Source: Victivallis vadensis (lineage in GTDB: Bacteria > Verrucomicrobiota > Lentisphaeria > Victivallales > Victivallaceae). From it: a stretch of 64,000 nucleotides of DNA. Below are positions 35,495 through 42,829 of the stretch, piece after piece (the stretch's first letter is position 1; each line of letters opens with the position of its first letter). The position numbers and the translations under genes were made by a program. The notes under the pieces were generated by a model. The model was not told the origin of the DNA. It saw nothing but the letters and a program-made list of their open reading frames with translations, and ran no database searches. The stretch lies in the NCBI RefSeq assembly GCF_003096415.1, contig NZ_QEKH01000004.1, positions 1 to 64,000 on the forward strand. The letters are read 5' to 3'.

Positions 35495-37570
35495 TTACGG
35501 CTGCTCCGTTTCGGCCGCGGCCAGATTCTCTTCCAGCGTCAGCTCTTCGCCGGTGCGCACCAGGCGCGCACTGTTGAAGATGATGATCAGCGTGCTGCCC
35601 GCATGGAGCACCGCCGCCCAGATCGGGGTCATCCAGCCGAACACCGACAGGATCATGCCGCCGAACACGAACAACATGCCGAACAACAGATTCTGGTTGA
35701 TGATCATGCGCGATTTGCGCGACAGGAACACCAGCATCGGAATCCGGCGCAGGTCGTTGGTCATCAGCGCGATCGACGCACTGTTGATCGCGATGTCCGA
35801 ACCGATCGCCCCCATCGCGATGCCGAGGTCGCCCTCCGCCAGCGCCGGAGCGTCGTTGACGCCGTCGCCGACCACCGCAACCCGCGAATTCTTCTTCACA
35901 TTTTCCACGAACTCCACCTTGCCTTCCGGCAGGCACTCGCTCTTGAATTCATCGATCTGAAGCTGCGCGGCGACGCTCTCCGCCACCGACTGGCGGTCGC
36001 CGGTCACCATCGCGCAGTACCGGACGCCGAGGCGGCGCAGGTCGGCGATCATCGCCGGCGCTTCGCGGCGCAGCTTGTCCTTGAAACCGATCCAGCCGAG
36101 CACTTTGCCGTCGCGGGCCACATAAACCACGCTCATGCCTTCGGTTTCGGAGGCGTTGTGCTCCGGAACCGTCACGCCCATGTCGCTCATCCAGTTCGCC
36201 CGGCCGATCAGGCAGGGGACGCCGTTGATCTTCGCCGAAACGCCCTTGCCGGGCGCCTCCTGAAATTCGGTCGCCTCGTCCAACTCCAGCTTGGCCTCTT
36301 CCGCCAATTTCTGGATCGCCACCGCGGTCGGATGGTTGCTGTAACGTTCCGCAGAACCCGCCACCATCAGCAGCTCGGCGGGTGTGACCTCCCCGAACGG
36401 ATTGAGTTTGACCACCGACAGCAACCCGTCGGTCAGCGTACCGGTCTTGTCGAACACGAACGCGGTGATTTTGGAGGCCAATTCCAGGTGGGCGACATTC
36501 TTGATGAAGATGCCGAGACGCGCCGCCGCCGCAACCGCCGCGACCACCGCAGTCGGCGTCGCCAGCACCACCGCGCACGGACACGCGATCACCATCAGCG
36601 TGATCACCCGGCTGATGTCCTCGGTGAACCACCAGGTCACGCAGGCCAGCATCAGCACGGTCGGCGTATAATAGCCCGCGTAGCGGTCGATGATCCGTAC
36701 CACCGGGGTGCGGCTCGACTCCGCCTGCAGAATCATATCCTTGACCTTGCCGAGCGTAGTATCCTCGCCGACCTTGGTCACTTCGAGGTCGACCAGACCG
36801 GTCAGGTTCTGGGTGCCGGCGAACACGTCGCTGCCGACCGATTTCTCCACCGGCAGCGATTCCCCGGTGATCGACGCCTGATTCACCGTGCTCTCGCCGG
36901 CGATGATCCGCGCGTCCACCGGGAAGTTCTCGCCGGGCCGCACCCGGATGCGGTCGCCGATCTTCAGCTCGGTCACCTGCACCTCCTGCTCGGAATTGTC
37001 GTCGCCGGACAACTTGCGGGCAGTATTCGGCGTCAGCTTGATCAGCTCCTCGATCGAACGCTGCGCGCCGCTGGCGGTCCGCGTTTCGATGATGATCGTC
37101 AGCAGCAGGAAAAACGCGATGATGCCCGCCGTCTGGAAGTCGGCGCTCGCCAGCGCCGCCAGAATCGCCAGCGCCACCAGCTCATTCATATAGACCTTGC
37201 CGTTGACCAAGTCCTTGATCGCGGTAATGATGATCGGCAGCGCCAGCACGAATGCGCCGAAGAGAGCGCTGATGCTCGCCGCGAACGCCTGCTCCGGCAA
37301 CGCCCATTCCAGCAGGAACGAGTTCACCGTCAGGATGCCGCCCAGCAGCGCGAAGAAAATCCGCCCCATCGCCCGATCATGCCCCACGCCGCCGGAAACC
37401 GCATCGTGGCCGCACGGACAAAAGCCGCCCGGTTCATGGTCATGGTCATGATGATGTTCATGCTCATGGTCGTGGTCGTGGTCATGTCCGCAGGCGCACT
37501 TCGCGGGAGCTGCGGCCGCCGCGGCCCCGCCCTGAACATTCGCCTTATTCATATCAAGTTCTTCCGCCAT
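35495..37570 (-). CDS. heavy-metal P1B-type ATPase (zinc/cadmium class) with His-rich N-terminus
   Basis: 691 aa, GGAGGAG before the ATG. The N-terminus carries a metal-binding stretch of alternating His/Asp/Glu flanked by CACGHD and CPCGHD, instead of a folded HMA domain. Then the P-type core: TGES near 233, the membrane motif ACPCAVV near 328, DKTGTLTDG near 372, SNHPTA near 412 and GDGVNDAPAL near 567. The CPC motif and His-rich end suit Zn/Cd/Co export (ZntA/CadA-like). It lies directly after the HflK gene, so metal export and membrane protein quality control are co-transcribed here. Confidence 0.92.
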   Translation of the reverse strand: MAEELDMNKANVQGGAAAAAAPAKCACGHDHDHDHEHEHHHDHDHEPGGFCPCGHDAVSGGVGHDRAMGRIFFALLGGILTVNSFLLEWALPEQAFAASISALFGAFVLALPIIITAIKDLVNGKVYMNELVALAILAALASADFQTAGIIAFFLLLTIIIETRTASGAQRSIEELIKLTPNTARKLSGDDNSEQEVQVTELKIGDRIRVRPGENFPVDARIIAGESTVNQASITGESLPVEKSVGSDVFAGTQNLTGLVDLEVTKVGEDTTLGKVKDMILQAESSRTPVVRIIDRYAGYYTPTVLMLACVTWWFTEDISRVITLMVIACPCAVVLATPTAVVAAVAAAARLGIFIKNVAHLELASKITAFVFDKTGTLTDGLLSVVKLNPFGEVTPAELLMVAGSAERYSNHPTAVAIQKLAEEAKLELDEATEFQEAPGKGVSAKINGVPCLIGRANWMSDMGVTVPEHNASETEGMSVVYVARDGKVLGWIGFKDKLRREAPAMIADLRRLGVRYCAMVTGDRQSVAESVAAQLQIDEFKSECLPEGKVEFVENVKKNSRVAVVGDGVNDAPALAEGDLGIAMGAIGSDIAINSASIALMTNDLRRIPMLVFLSRKSRMIINQNLLFGMLFVFGGMILSVFGWMTPIWAAVLHAGSTLIIIFNSARLVRTGEELTLEENLAAAETEQP

Positions 37571-37573
37571 GAT

Positions 37574-38719
37574 TTACTTCTCCTCCGCGGTCTTGTCGGC
37601 ATCTTTTTTCTGCGCCGTCTTAGGCTCCGGATTCAGCTTGATCCAAACCCGTTTTCCACTGTTGCCGGTCCCGAGGATGAACTTGTTTTCCTCCTGGGCC
37701 TGCAGCACCTCCGCCAGCGTACTGTTGTAAAGCGCCATCAGCACCGTCTTCGGACTGACCGCGTATTCCTGGTTGATGCTCCTGAAATAGTTGCTCTCGG
37801 CCTGAATCGTGGAAACGGCTTCCTTGCGGTAGGTTTCCGCCGCGGCGAGAATCTCCGCCTGGCGCGCCAGCGCGTCGTTGGCGGTCTGCACCTGATACTC
37901 CTGCGCCTTGCTGTACAGACTGGACTGGGTGTTGTTCGCCGCAGCGACCTCGTCGAACGCCGCCTTGGTCTTCTGGGGCGGGAACACCCGGTTCAGAGAG
38001 ACGCTCTCCACCACCATCCCGCAATCGGCATCGGTGAGCAGCTTGCTGAAAAGACGGCTGACCTCATCGCTGTACTCGGTCTGCTTGTCGTACAGAATGT
38101 CATCGACCTTGCGGCCCGCGGTGACCTGAATCACCGCCTGCCGGAAGAGGTTCCGCACCAGCGTCTGCGGTCCGCGCGTCCCGGTAAAGCCGTTCGCGTC
38201 GGTTTCGACGACGTCGGGCATCACCCGGTCGTTGTCGACCGGCTTGGCGGGCATGGTCAGCGTTTCGTAGTACTTGGCCGGATTGGTCACCTGATAGTTG
38301 ATCGTCCACATGGTGTGGATGATGTTCGCATCGCCGGTCAGCAAATAGGAGTCGCGGCCGGGTTCGAGCGACTGCCCGCTCCCCGAACCGTCCGGCATCT
38401 CCGCCGCCACGAAATTCACGTCCATCGACTGCTGGTTGGTCTGGATGCGGATGAACTGGTTGACCGGATACGGCAGGAACCAGTGGCCGCCCGTCGTATA
38501 GGTCTCCTGAATCTTGCCGAACTTGACCACGATCACCGCCCGCTGGGGCTCGACCGCGAAATAACCGCCGCCGGTGAAGAAATAGACCAGCATGCCGATG
38601 ATGACCACCAGCAGCAGGCCGAACGCCCACTGCAGGCTCTTGACCAGTGATTTCAGGCCCGACTCGTACTGCCCCGAGCGGTCGAAATCCTGATTGATTA
38701 CACTTTTGGGTTCCATCAC
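37574..38719 (-). CDS. hflK: SPFH-domain protein, HflK-like
   Basis: 381 aa. One membrane helix at about 30-52 with a short cytoplasmic N-terminus, then an SPFH/band-7 domain (QRAVIVVKFGKIQETYTTGGHWFLPYPVNQFIRIQTNQQSMDV) and a coiled region (QVQTANDALARQAEILAAAETYRKEAVSTIQAE). This is the HflK side of the HflKC complex, which surrounds FtsH at the inner membrane and limits its proteolysis. It follows the HflC-like gene after 19 bases. The usual hflX-hflK-hflC order is not kept. Confidence 0.85.
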   Translation of the reverse strand: MMEPKSVINQDFDRSGQYESGLKSLVKSLQWAFGLLLVVIIGMLVYFFTGGGYFAVEPQRAVIVVKFGKIQETYTTGGHWFLPYPVNQFIRIQTNQQSMDVNFVAAEMPDGSGSGQSLEPGRDSYLLTGDANIIHTMWTINYQVTNPAKYYETLTMPAKPVDNDRVMPDVVETDANGFTGTRGPQTLVRNLFRQAVIQVTAGRKVDDILYDKQTEYSDEVSRLFSKLLTDADCGMVVESVSLNRVFPPQKTKAAFDEVAAANNTQSSLYSKAQEYQVQTANDALARQAEILAAAETYRKEAVSTIQAESNYFRSINQEYAVSPKTVLMALYNSTLAEVLQAQEENKFILGTGNSGKRVWIKLNPEPKTAQKKDADKTAEEK

Positions 38720-38738
38720 TCTCTCGCTCCCTGGTTGA

Positions 38739-39671
38739 TTACTTGGACGCGGCCGGCTTCACGCTGTTCAGGACTTCCGAACCGGGCTTGAGCAGATCGA
38801 ACGGGGCGACGTTGGTATCCAGCACCAGAGTGGTGCGCCCCTTCATGATCAGGCGGAGCGAATCAAGCTTGCGGAGAAATTCGGCCAATTCCGGATTCTC
38901 CTTGAACACGGCGTAATATTTGGCGGCTTCGGCATCGCCCTCCGCCCGGATCACCTTGGCCTTGGCCTCGGCGTCGGCCAGCGAAATCGCCCGCTTGGTA
39001 TCCGCCTCGATGCGGATCTCCTTGGCGCGGCGCTCGCCCTCCGCGAGGAAGTCGGCGGCCACGCTCTGGCGCTCGCTGATCATCCGGTCGAACACCTTGT
39101 CGCTGATCGTCTTGGGAACGTTGATCGAATTCACGCCGACGCTGACGATTTCAAGACCGTAATTTTTGCAGCTCTCCGCGAGGCGGGTCTTGATCTGATC
39201 CTGAATCTCGTTGAGCTTCATCAGCTTCGGATCGGTGTTGACCACCTGGTTGAACCGGAACTGGCCGAATGCGGCATTCTTGTAGCCGCGCATCCAGGAG
39301 TTCAACTGATCCTCCGCCTTGGTGATATTCTCCAGCCGCACGAAGAACTGCTCGGCATTGCTGATCCGGTAATTCACATAGATGCCGACCAGAATATTCT
39401 GCCCGTCGGCGGTCATCGTCTCCTCCAGCTTGCCCGCGCCGCCTTCAAAACAGCGGATGCGGTGGTCGAAACGGTGGATTTTCTGAAACGGGAACGGCCA
39501 GCGGAAGTGCAGCCCCGGCTCGTTGACCTCGGCGGGACGCCCGAACGTGGTCACCACCGCGCTCTCGGTCTGATTCAGCTGATAAGAGAAAACCGCGACC
39601 AGCAGAATCGCCGCGACCACGATCCCCAGCAACATTGTCGGCCAGTGCTTGAAAAATTTACCCGTTGCCAT
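38739..39671 (-). CDS. hflC: SPFH-domain protein, HflC-like
   Basis: 310 aa from the ATG at 39671; the frame begins with a TTG at 39689, but GGGAGG lies between them and fits the ATG. N-terminal membrane helix at about 12-34, then the band-7 domain (NQTESAVVTTFGRPAEVNEPGLHFRWPFPFQKIHRFD), a helical segment with EGERRAKEIRIEADTKRAISLADAEAKAKVIRAEGDAEAAKYY typical of HflC, and a short C-terminal tail. It forms a pair with the HflK-like protein downstream. Confidence 0.87.
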   Translation of the reverse strand: MATGKFFKHWPTMLLGIVVAAILLVAVFSYQLNQTESAVVTTFGRPAEVNEPGLHFRWPFPFQKIHRFDHRIRCFEGGAGKLEETMTADGQNILVGIYVNYRISNAEQFFVRLENITKAEDQLNSWMRGYKNAAFGQFRFNQVVNTDPKLMKLNEIQDQIKTRLAESCKNYGLEIVSVGVNSINVPKTISDKVFDRMISERQSVAADFLAEGERRAKEIRIEADTKRAISLADAEAKAKVIRAEGDAEAAKYYAVFKENPELAEFLRKLDSLRLIMKGRTTLVLDTNVAPFDLLKPGSEVLNSVKPAASK

Positions 39672-39721
39672 AACTCCAAAACCTCCCAATTTATGTTGTA
39701 TCGAAAAATCCGATCGATGAT

Positions 39722-41716
39722 TTACTTTACGCTGGTAATGTCGGCATCTGTCAGGTCGAGCCGCTCTTTCTGTTCGAAATTCAATTCATAGACCTCGCTG
39801 GAGAGACCGGAGGCGATCACGAACTTGCGGATATCCTTCGCGTCCTTTTCCAGAAAATCCAGATAGCTCCTCAGCCGGAACATGCTCGGCATCGCCCGGT
39901 AGGTGATCAACTGGGTATTGAACCGGCCGCTTTCCGCCTCGGCCACGGTCTTGGTCGTATAGCGGTAGGACTCCGCATCCGAGGTGATCTGCAGCGCTTT
40001 GGACTCCGCCTCCGGCAGGGTTTTGGCGGCATACGCCTTCGCCTTCCAGATCATCGTTTCGCGTTCTTCCATCGCGCCGATCACATTCTGATAGGCGGGC
40101 GCGACCTTCTCCACCGGCGGATGCGCGTCAAGGATCGTCACCGCGACGATGCGAATGCCGAGCTCATGCATGTCGGCAAGCTCCTGAATCCGCTTTTTCA
40201 TCGCCGCCTCCGCGCCCAGGCGGTCGGTGGACATCACCTCCATCATCGAGGAACTGGCCAGATATTCGGTGGCGGCCTGTTCGCCGATCCGGGTCAGGGT
40301 CTTTTCCGGGTCGAGGTTCTTATAGCCGTAATTCATCACGCCGTCGCGGCGGATCTGGTAATCGATCGGAATCACCATGCGGATGAAGGAGATCGACGCC
40401 TCGCTGTTGCGGCCGGAACTCTCTTTCCCGATCGGCGGAACCGCCACGATGAAATTGTTGTCTTCACCACCGTGGGCAGCGGTCCACAGCACCACCGGAC
40501 TCAGCGCGGTCTTTTTGGCTTTCGGCGCAGGGCCGTGACCGTGGCCGTCATCCTCGGGGGCCTCTTCTTCCTTCTCATCATGCAGCTCGCCGATCACGAC
40601 CTGATGGATATCGGTGCAGCTGAACTGCCGGATTTCGCCGAACGGCCACGGCAAAGTCCAGTAGATGCCCGGCTCAAGGTCGGTCTCCACCACCTTGCCG
40701 AGGCGCTCCTTGACGCCGACTTCGCTCGGACCGACTTCGTGGATCATCGTGAATCCCCACAGGATCACCGCCCAGATGATCACCAGCGGGAAGAAGGAAC
40801 GTTCCATGAAGCTGTAAAGCCAGGTGCCGGAGACCTTGAAGCCGAACTGGTAGTCCAGCGCGGCCGCGATATTGCGCATCACGCCGCCGGGTTCGGTGAA
40901 CAGCGCCAGCAGCCGGCTCTCGAAGATCGGCCGGGTTTCGCGCATGGTCCGCGGCCGGTAGAACTCGATCACGAAATTGGTGATGAATTCAAGCCCCAGC
41001 ACCGCGTACAGCCAGAAGATCACCCGCGCCGCGTAGGTATCCGCGGCCGGAATGTTGTTGCGCACGAAAATCGCGGCGACCGTCGATACGAACATCACCG
41101 CAAACCCGGTCACCAGCCACGCCCCGACCGGACGCAGCCAGCGGAACGCCGGCCCGCGGGACTGCCCGACGAAAAACGCCCCCGCAAATACACTCACGAG
41201 CATCAGGATTGCGGAGAAAAGCGCCGACTTCGTCGCCACGTCCACTCCGATCGGCATCGCGTCGGCCGGGCGGCCCGCCCAGTGCCGGAAGAAATAGCCC
41301 AGAAGCCCGGCCACCAGCAGCGCCGCCAGCACCGACAGCACATACGGGGCGAACCGCCTGTAATTCTCGAAAGAGCGGCCTGCCGTGAAACGGACGTCCT
41401 CTTCCACATTCAACGCATTGGTGCTGGCGCGCCCGGCCAGCAGCATTTTTTCCTCATTTTCAATTGCGGCGCCGGTGCCCAGCATGCCGTAAATCAGCGC
41501 AGATATCGAAAACAGCAGCGCCAGCGAATACGGAATCACCGCCAGCGAAAAGACATCCGCCCCGACCAATTCCCCTTTCACCGCTCCCAGAACCAGCGTC
41601 AGCACCAGCAGAATCAGGGATGTGATTCCGCCGATGATCGATAGACGCGTCGTCAGTCTGGAGTTGTCAATTGCTGCTCTGATGTCGCCTTTACTAGCCA
41701 CGGTTGCACCTCTCAT
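39722..41716 (-). CDS. polytopic membrane protein fused to an SPFH domain
   Basis: 664 aa from the ATG at 41716; a GTG at 41698 has a better GAGAGG ribosome site and could be the real start. Six or so membrane helices fill residues 25-250, another lies near 305-325, and then an SPFH domain begins (VGPSEVGVKERLGKVVETDLEPGIYWTLPWPFGEIRQF). A His/Lys/Glu-rich loop interrupts it near 385-405. The C-terminal coiled region resembles HflK. A large multi-pass module in front of band-7 is unusual. First gene of the cluster, followed by HflC and HflK paralogues. Confidence 0.83.
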   Translation of the reverse strand: MRGATVASKGDIRAAIDNSRLTTRLSIIGGITSLILLVLTLVLGAVKGELVGADVFSLAVIPYSLALLFSISALIYGMLGTGAAIENEEKMLLAGRASTNALNVEEDVRFTAGRSFENYRRFAPYVLSVLAALLVAGLLGYFFRHWAGRPADAMPIGVDVATKSALFSAILMLVSVFAGAFFVGQSRGPAFRWLRPVGAWLVTGFAVMFVSTVAAIFVRNNIPAADTYAARVIFWLYAVLGLEFITNFVIEFYRPRTMRETRPIFESRLLALFTEPGGVMRNIAAALDYQFGFKVSGTWLYSFMERSFFPLVIIWAVILWGFTMIHEVGPSEVGVKERLGKVVETDLEPGIYWTLPWPFGEIRQFSCTDIHQVVIGELHDEKEEEAPEDDGHGHGPAPKAKKTALSPVVLWTAAHGGEDNNFIVAVPPIGKESSGRNSEASISFIRMVIPIDYQIRRDGVMNYGYKNLDPEKTLTRIGEQAATEYLASSSMMEVMSTDRLGAEAAMKKRIQELADMHELGIRIVAVTILDAHPPVEKVAPAYQNVIGAMEERETMIWKAKAYAAKTLPEAESKALQITSDAESYRYTTKTVAEAESGRFNTQLITYRAMPSMFRLRSYLDFLEKDAKDIRKFVIASGLSSEVYELNFEQKERLDLTDADITSVK

Positions 41717-42000
41717 CTATGATTAAATGACTCTGTAATTCCGAATAAAGCAACGGCCCTCACGAATGCAAAACTGCGATTCCGAGCGGGCTTCTGCCCA
41801 ATCACTCCTGATTCGTTTGTTACATATTAATACACCACACCAACGGAAATAACAAGTTATTTTCTCCAACTTTAATATTTTTTTGGCCGGGAACCATTCA
41901 CTTCTCCGCCAAACATTCTCCCGGCGGGATCTTTTCTGATCCGGAAAAGACAATAAAAAATCACACAATACCGCATTTTTCATCGTTTTTCAGTTGATTT
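41717..42000. other. AT-rich divergent promoter region
   Basis: Gap between the SPFH cluster and mraZ. AT-rich, with several TTGACA-like and TATAAT-like stretches but no single clear promoter. No gene or hairpin stands out before the TGGA boxes at 42001. Confidence 0.4.
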
Positions 42001-42034
42001 TGGAAAAAAATGGAATATAGTGGATAATAATGGA
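42001..42034 (+). promoter_or_regulatory. four TGGA boxes at 10-bp spacing (MraZ-type operator)
   Basis: TGGA occurs at 42001, 42011, 42021 and 42031, each followed by an AT-rich stretch. MraZ is known to bind repeated TGGGN pentamers separated by five bases upstream of its own gene. Here the third G is replaced by A, but the period is exact. The boxes end 74 bases before the mraZ start. Confidence 0.75.
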
Positions 42035-42107
42035 AAAACAGAGAAAAAACATCCTGATTCCTCCGTTTTTCAAAAAACATGGAAAAATTCCGGAATTCTG
42101 GTGACTG

Positions 42108-42596
42108 ATGCTGATTTTTTGCGGGCAGGAACACTGTCTGATCGATTCGAACGGACGCCTTAAACTGCCGCAGCGTTTCATCGATGATTTCACGCTGCGC
42201 TGCGGCGGCGAAGTCGTGATGCACGGACTGCCCGAAGGGGCGGTGGCGCTTTATCCGGAAGAGGTGTACCGGGAAATGCGCGAACGCGAGGTGGAAGCGG
42301 TCGATTCGATCGGTTCGAGTTTCGCCGCCCGCCGGTCGCTGCGCCGTTTCGGCGCCCTGACCTGCCCCGACACCATCACCCGGCAGGGGAGAATCACCCT
42401 CCCCGCCGCGTTCCGCGAGCACGCGGGGCTGGAACCGGGCTGCGAAGCCTGTGTGGTGGGCGTGGAAATCGGAGTGGAAATCTGGTCGGCCGAGCGGTTC
42501 GCCGCGGAAATGGCCGCCATCAATGAACATCTGCGGCAGAAGCGCGAGCGTGAAATGCTCGCGGACCTGCAGATAACCGGGGAGAACAGAGTATGA
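42108..42596 (+). CDS. mraZ: MraZ-like transcriptional regulator
   Basis: 162 aa. Two AbrB/SpoVT-type swapped-hairpin repeats: GQEHCLIDSNGRLKLPQRFID with YPEEVYREM, and CPDTITRQGRITLPAAFREHAGL with EIWSAERFAAEM, the MraZ arrangement. MraZ forms ring-shaped oligomers that repress the division and cell-wall cluster. Here it is not followed by rsmH or ftsI but by a small membrane protein overlapping by four bases. It is thus either a second MraZ or a relocated one. No clear ribosome site precedes the ATG. Confidence 0.85.
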   Translation: MLIFCGQEHCLIDSNGRLKLPQRFIDDFTLRCGGEVVMHGLPEGAVALYPEEVYREMREREVEAVDSIGSSFAARRSLRRFGALTCPDTITRQGRITLPAAFREHAGLEPGCEACVVGVEIGVEIWSAERFAAEMAAINEHLRQKREREMLADLQITGENRV

Positions 42597-42829
42597 AAAT
42601 CGATCGTGAACGCTGCACAAGAACGACGCTGTTCGCCGTACTCGCCCTCTTCACGCTGCTCCTGATCGGGTCGGAGCATCGCAAAGAGGCGGCGGCAGCC
42701 GCACCCGAAACCGTCACTGCGACCGCCATGGCCTCCGAGCTTCCCGCCGACCGGCGCGGCGAATGGCAGGAAGCGGCCCGGACCAATCCGCTCTGGCTGC
42801 TGGAAGCCGTCTCGGAATCCGGCCGGTAG
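42593..42829 (+). CDS. small membrane protein co-translated with MraZ
   Basis: 78 aa. A basic N-terminus (MKIDRERCTRTT) and one hydrophobic helix at about 13-27, followed by an Ala-rich periplasmic tail. In the classical cluster the small bitopic protein after mraZ/rsmH is FtsL; topology and size are similar, but no leucine-zipper coiled coil is visible, so I do not call it FtsL. The four-base overlap with mraZ makes it a real gene more likely. Confidence 0.6.
   Translation: MKIDRERCTRTTLFAVLALFTLLLIGSEHRKEAAAAAPETVTATAMASELPADRRGEWQEAARTNPLWLLEAVSESGR

Follow-up and report, generated by a model that had tools for sequence, protein, structure and literature searches.

A second MraZ in the class Lentisphaeria with its own promoter array and a candidate link to a third SEDS glycosyltransferase

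Few bacterial regulators are as conserved as MraZ, and the reason for its retention is unclear. The question raised by the present locus is whether an mraZ gene that lies away from the division cluster of Victivallis vadensis, behind an array of TGGA boxes, is a displaced copy of the usual regulator or a second one, with a specificity and an operon of its own. The locus was examined within a window of 64 kb, by which we mean the whole stretch of DNA that was analysed, and comprises the following features, the gene being referred to here as mraZ2 and its small downstream neighbour as smp.

41994..41999, + strand: TTGATT, predicted -35 element for mraZ2, adjoining box 1 on its 5' side, read from the sequence
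42001..42034, + strand: operator of four TGGA boxes (42001, 42011, 42021 and 42031) with a 10-bp period, read from the sequence
42016..42021, + strand: predicted -10 element (TATAGT), the last T of which is the first T of box 3
42108..42596 (stop included), + strand: mraZ2, encoding a divergent MraZ paralogue of 162 aa, assigned from PF02381, the structural model and the tree
42593..42829, + strand: smp, encoding a predicted bitopic small membrane protein of 78 aa, joined to mraZ2 by an ATGA overlap

The 162-aa open reading frame matches PF02381 in two stretches (Pfam; 59 bits against a cut-off of 23, E 4e-16). An AlphaFold model of the protein (pLDDT 86.7) has 16 matches in the PDB with E below 0.001, all of them MraZ, with TM-scores of up to 0.82 by target, and the predicted fold is the double AbrB-like fold of MraZ. 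The smp product has a single 18-residue hydrophobic stretch near its N-terminus (mean hydropathy 1.99), which may be a cleaved signal peptide instead of an anchor, and has no Pfam match at E below 1. Flanking mraZ2 are divergent SPFH (Band_7) genes upstream and a GH130 gene downstream, with rsmH, ftsL and ftsI absent from these flanks. An earlier note, made from the letters of this DNA, had described an MraZ with a coupled 78-aa bitopic protein, lacking the usual rsmH-ftsL-ftsI genes and preceded by four TGGA boxes at exact 10-bp spacing, and this description was borne out. Within the window a single site matches the four-box pattern exactly, an occurrence not to be expected by chance; allowing up to three mismatches gives four matches against 0.65 expected, three of the four being registers of the mraZ2 array. 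Across the whole 5.2-Mb genome the exact match is unique to this array; at up to two mismatches the other matches comprise one overlapping register and two unrelated sites (one match for the reversed control), and no further convincing TGGA array was found. Upstream, positions 35495-41716 on the - strand hold a P-type ATPase-like open reading frame, very rich in His and Asp at its N-terminus (HDHDHDHEHEHHHDHDHE), and behind it several SPFH-like genes in a row; two of these have a confirmed Band_7 domain, the third and the ATPase being read by eye.

The genome of V. vadensis contains two MraZ genes. The second is located on contig C5, in the order mraZ, rsmH (314 aa), an FtsL-like protein of 142 aa and an FtsI of 618 aa with dimerisation and transpeptidase domains, where rsmH is named from sequence and position without a family search and the FtsL-like protein from its position and single hydrophobic stretch without a family match. 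The promoter of this canonical mraZ carries four TAGG boxes at 10-bp spacing. The two MraZ proteins share 29% identity over 59 residues (E 0.012), and the alignment indicates little common to both beyond the MraZ pattern. Because the canonical mraZ sits beside rsmH on C5, and rsmH is absent from the window locus, mraZ2 is classified as a paralogue, and neither as a moved gene nor as an orthologue. The earlier note had called the gene either a relocated or a second MraZ, and had proposed a search for another mraZ next to rsmH; that gene was found on C5 with the FtsL-like and FtsI genes behind it, so that "second" is correct and "relocated" is not. The local rearrangement of a sole mraZ, which the note had named as the opposing outcome, does not apply and is ruled out, since the second mraZ adjoins rsmH.

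MraZ2 extends well beyond this genome. The MraZ Pfam model matched in 60 of 61 relatives, and when these matches were sorted into types by N-terminus and position the MraZ2 type was present in 49, as confirmed by an MraZ2 profile. At E 1e-10 the profile matched 115 of 197 Lentisphaeria genomes. A sample of 288 genomes from the phylum gave two weak matches outside the class (4e-9 and 5e-9), which are canonical MraZ because an rsmH-like open reading frame comes next in each; a horizontal origin outside the class was rejected, as the searches there reached canonical MraZ only. For a collection of named genomes, the titles of the best 80 of 85 stretches encoding an MraZ2 relative were nearly all Lentisphaeria, Lentisphaerae, Victivallales or unnamed bacteria, with a few bearing other labels (e.g. 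Kiritimatiellota, Verrucomicrobia and Paceibacterota). What had looked like a local peculiarity is indeed isolated in this genome, but comparison across relatives finds the arrangement throughout the class.

Removal of identical proteins reduced 129 loci to 84 distinct MraZ2 proteins, and these were examined for smp with a profile built from 16 downstream proteins, themselves part of the searched set, in six frames. In 81 of the 84 loci the best match came immediately after mraZ2 in the same orientation (72 with E below 0.001 and nine with E 0.001-0.11), at gaps of -32 to 297 nt; smp was not detected in the other three, and the profile misses most distant class loci. Similarity among the small proteins is weak. 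They have in common a basic N-terminus, a single hydrophobic stretch that closes with a small-residue pair (GA/GS) and, towards the C-terminus, the pattern W...A..nP..LLr. Over the 61 genomes the profile matched in 45, with no match in the five genomes of the window's genus that are without MraZ2, and the smp proteins of two relatives had non-significant Pfam matches only. Four loci (L060, L071, L076 and L079) have a CxxC...CxxC open reading frame of ~75 aa inserted between mraZ2 and smp, which resembles the ClpX zinc finger (PF06689 at E 0.026 in the one tested); neither this insert nor smp had a Pfam match above the curated cut-off.

Clustering of neighbouring proteins revealed two more genes downstream of mraZ2-smp in many loci. 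No conserved upstream neighbour stood out, and the fourth-ranked cluster, on the - strand over mraZ2, is taken to be a shadow frame of mraZ2. The first of the two genes encodes a protein of mostly 190-260 aa (~235 aa) with a PBP_dimer domain alone, here termed the pedestal protein. Of the 74 loci with 1.7 kb or more of sequence 3' of mraZ2, 28 have a profile match to it no further than 1 kb from that gene, and shorter contigs showed four additional cases. PF03717 was found in all three pedestal proteins tested and a transpeptidase domain in none of the three (Pfam), and as they are without this domain they are regarded as derived from class B penicillin-binding proteins (bPBPs) and not as bPBPs. 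The pedestal profile aligns with FtsI over the anchor and pedestal, the best structural matches of the pedestal model are PBP2 and FtsI from RodA/FtsW complexes (6pl5 and 8bh1), and the proteins end after the pedestal, with the SEDS gene starting at once. This SEDS gene comes next in 26 of the 28 loci with a pedestal protein. SEDS proteins matched PF01098 at 214 and 221 bits, and the active-site Asp motif was present in 27 of 30 by pattern and in one more by eye (L070); of the remaining rows, L176 is a fragment and L205 is ambiguous for the motif.

Other orders of the class supplied 14 MraZ2 loci for comparison: the pedestal protein is downstream in 13 of them (short and weak in L285) and SEDS in 11, and the TGGA score, out of a maximum of 16, is at least 12 in 12 (11 in L278 and 9 in L273). 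Because these distant orders share mraZ2, the array, the pedestal protein and SEDS, the order mraZ2-smp-pedestal-SEDS is probably ancestral. Among closed genomes, that of strain WC36 (G037) has the intact order, and in that of strain zth2 (G017) the pedestal-SEDS pair is 1.6 Mb away, so that the split is not an effect of assembly. The divergent MraZ2 of L273 (G106) has no TGGA array, smp, pedestal protein or SEDS adjoining it, and is possibly a degenerate or re-used copy. Elsewhere, two prepilin-like genes of L226 (L226:7419-8558 and L226:14898-16139), read by eye, each contain a long insert, similar in both, ahead of a repeated FTLIELL start, which gives the impression of a repeat element inserted into the signal region.

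In V. vadensis the pedestal protein (~236 aa) and a third SEDS overlap on contig C1, and the scan of its genome at up to two mismatches found no TGGA array at this pair, so MraZ2 control there cannot be claimed. It could accordingly be held that MraZ2 does no more than repress its own operon of two genes, that smp has an envelope role of its own and that the pedestal-SEDS pair is a frequent neighbour only: the pair lies elsewhere in the window's family, and five of the 61 genomes break the co-occurrence with no assembly reason seen, three with a pedestal protein and no detected MraZ2 (G010, G016 and G020) and two with the reverse (G043 and G055). We consider this account unlikely, as the four-gene order recurs from the most distant class loci to the window's order, and the co-occurrence holds even where the genes are apart. 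MraZ2 and the pedestal protein are both present in 47 of the 61 genomes and both absent from eight, with MraZ2 alone in two and the pedestal protein alone in four (Fisher's p 7e-6, a test that ignores shared ancestry); in G044, one of the last four, MraZ2 is probably missing because the contig ends beside smp. Among nine genomes of the window's genus, four have MraZ2, smp and the pedestal protein together with three SEDS each, and the other five lack all three genes and have two SEDS or one, losses that may represent one event. Three SEDS were counted in 40 of the 51 genomes with a pedestal protein (two in seven, four in four), and two or one in 10 of 10 without. G020 is the sole relative of the 61 without any MraZ match, and has a pedestal protein and three SEDS.

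The promoter arrays bear on which protein reads the boxes. Within 150 bp upstream of mraZ2 the best four-box TGGA score was 12-16 of 16 in all 84 loci, with 47 perfect arrays and 29 with one mismatch, and among 1680 shuffled upstream regions, in which base content alone was kept, a score of 12 was reached six times and none was higher. In 63 loci three or more exact TGGA follow one another with a period of 10; of the periods from 6 to 15, this is the only one at which such chains occur. With the arrays of the 84 loci superimposed, 76 show TTGN immediately before box 1, and 77 a TATAAT-like hexamer at +15 (or +14). By these registers boxes 1 and 2 occupy the spacer and box 3 starts within the -10, so that the array lies across the -35 and -10 region of a predicted sigma-70-type promoter. 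The canonical set comprised 38 distinct mraZ genes, after six MraZ2 rows had been set aside by motif and near-identical rows removed, and all 38 have TAGG arrays (scores 11-16), most of which start at the end of a TAAAAT-like -10 and run 3'. TGGA outscored TAGG in 84 of 84 MraZ2 promoters, and TAGG outscored TGGA in 38 of 38 canonical ones. The core of the MraZ box in other bacteria is TGGG, as in E. coli, or GTGG-like, neither of which was encountered here, with TGGA at mraZ2 and TAGG at its canonical sister; a core that differs from clade to clade cannot serve to define the MraZ family, and membership by fold stands. The earlier note had measured the boxes against TGGG, but the clade's own canonical mraZ has TAGG.

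In a scan of the 61 genomes all 27 exact four-box TGGA matches were at mraZ2. Allowing one mismatch at most, 44 genomes have the array. All 44 carry MraZ2, the 12 genomes lacking MraZ2 gave no match, and five MraZ2 genomes have arrays too degenerate for this cut-off. The matches at this level comprise 61 rows, 53 at mraZ2 (overlapping registers included) and eight elsewhere; a wider MraZ2 regulon was rejected, the eight off-locus matches being no more than the nine of the reversed control. The corresponding TAGG scan gave 15 rows, all at canonical mraZ, from 14 of 21 genomes. The altered specificity put forward in the earlier note is thus strongly suggested by the distinct arrays and by the restriction of exact TGGA arrays to MraZ2, the binding itself being what we infer. 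Canonical MraZ or another regulator might instead read the TGGA array and MraZ2 do something else, given that the specificity of MraZ2 is read from position alone and that MraZ boxes vary in other bacteria (AAAGTG[T/G] repeats in Mollicutes, according to an extract of PMC8475190). Genomes without MraZ2 nevertheless have canonical MraZ (e.g. G002-G005 and G008) and no TGGA array, and canonical genes carry TAGG arrays, making this a very improbable reading.

The 84 MraZ2 and 38 canonical sequences were placed in one unrooted tree, where a single branch, with support of 100/100 and with long branches meeting at it, divides the two groups. On sequence grounds, MraZ2 is an ancient MraZ paralogue of the class Lentisphaeria. 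That mraZ2 is a functionless part of the division cluster, recently duplicated or rearranged, as its isolation in the V. vadensis genome might suggest, is scarcely credible in view of class-wide conservation (44-69% identity to the window protein over sampled rows), its place as one of the tree's two groups and an array kept in 84 of 84 loci.

Based on these observations, we propose that MraZ2 is probably an autorepressor with a private specificity, heading a parallel peptidoglycan operon. An MraZ2 ring would bind the four TGGA boxes inside its own sigma-70-type promoter, with boxes 1 and 2 between -35 and -10, box 3 taking the last base of the -10 and box 4 near the start site, and would thereby block RNA polymerase and hold the level of its own transcript constant. 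This circuit would be independent of canonical MraZ, the presumed reader of TAGG boxes placed ~20 bp further 3'. The same transcript would carry the small bitopic membrane protein, translationally coupled here, and in its ancestral form would run on into the membrane-anchored, pedestal-only protein and then the third SEDS glycosyltransferase, as a parallel, reduced copy of the order mraZ-ftsL-ftsI-ftsW. In V. vadensis the operon would have been split, with mraZ2-smp in the window and pedestal-SEDS on contig C1. Within the putative complex the SEDS polymerase would receive allosteric activation from the pedestal protein, as FtsW does from FtsI; smp would stand in for FtsL, and cross-linking would come from another PBP.

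Each component has a known counterpart. MraZ2 shares with the MraZ of E. coli and Mollicutes, an autorepressor at the head of the dcw cluster, its domains, the predicted double AbrB-like fold and the 10-bp promoter repeats, but differs in being a second copy, with a TGGA core, away from rsmH and at the head of another operon. By its title, the cryo-EM entry PDB 9sz7 shows M. genitalium MraZ on a four-box promoter. The smp protein is like FtsL in size, in place before bPBP-like and SEDS genes and perhaps in topology, although it has no detectable Pfam family likeness to it and a separate FtsL-like gene is present in the canonical cluster. The pedestal-SEDS pair shares with FtsW-FtsI and RodA-PBP2 the SEDS family, the active-site Asp motif and an anchored pedestal domain, whereas its bPBP-like partner ends after the pedestal with no transpeptidase domain. 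In class B PBPs with dispensable transpeptidase activity that domain is still present; the pedestal protein lacks it altogether. An extract of PMC8078798 indicates that a class B PBP can matter for activation rather than cross-linking, and that the pedestal is held to activate SEDS through the loop ECL4, so that a pedestal-only partner is a plausible activator without cross-linking. FtsW requires an Asp (D297 in E. coli, according to an extract of PMC8765783), and the SEDS proteins here retain the motif surrounding it. For the more specific proposal, that Lentisphaeria possess a third synthase made up of SEDS, a transpeptidase-free pedestal partner and an FtsL-like protein under a private-operator MraZ, we see an even chance.

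The second MraZ circuit is real, conserved and, as far as our searches reach, undescribed, which largely vindicates the earlier note, in a richer setting than it had supposed; neither a second MraZ nor such a pedestal-SEDS pair was found described in the open-access literature that was searched. With two MraZ proteins in one genome, each under a promoter array of its own, nature provides an experiment on how the ring recognises its boxes, and on what purpose MraZ serves outside the division cluster. If the proposal is true, the choice of base and the position of the boxes would insulate the two circuits from one another. The linked operon points to a SEDS polymerase driven by a partner unable to cross-link, which, if true, would represent a natural separation of glycan polymerisation from cross-linking and would allow the activating and cross-linking roles of class B PBPs to be studied apart.
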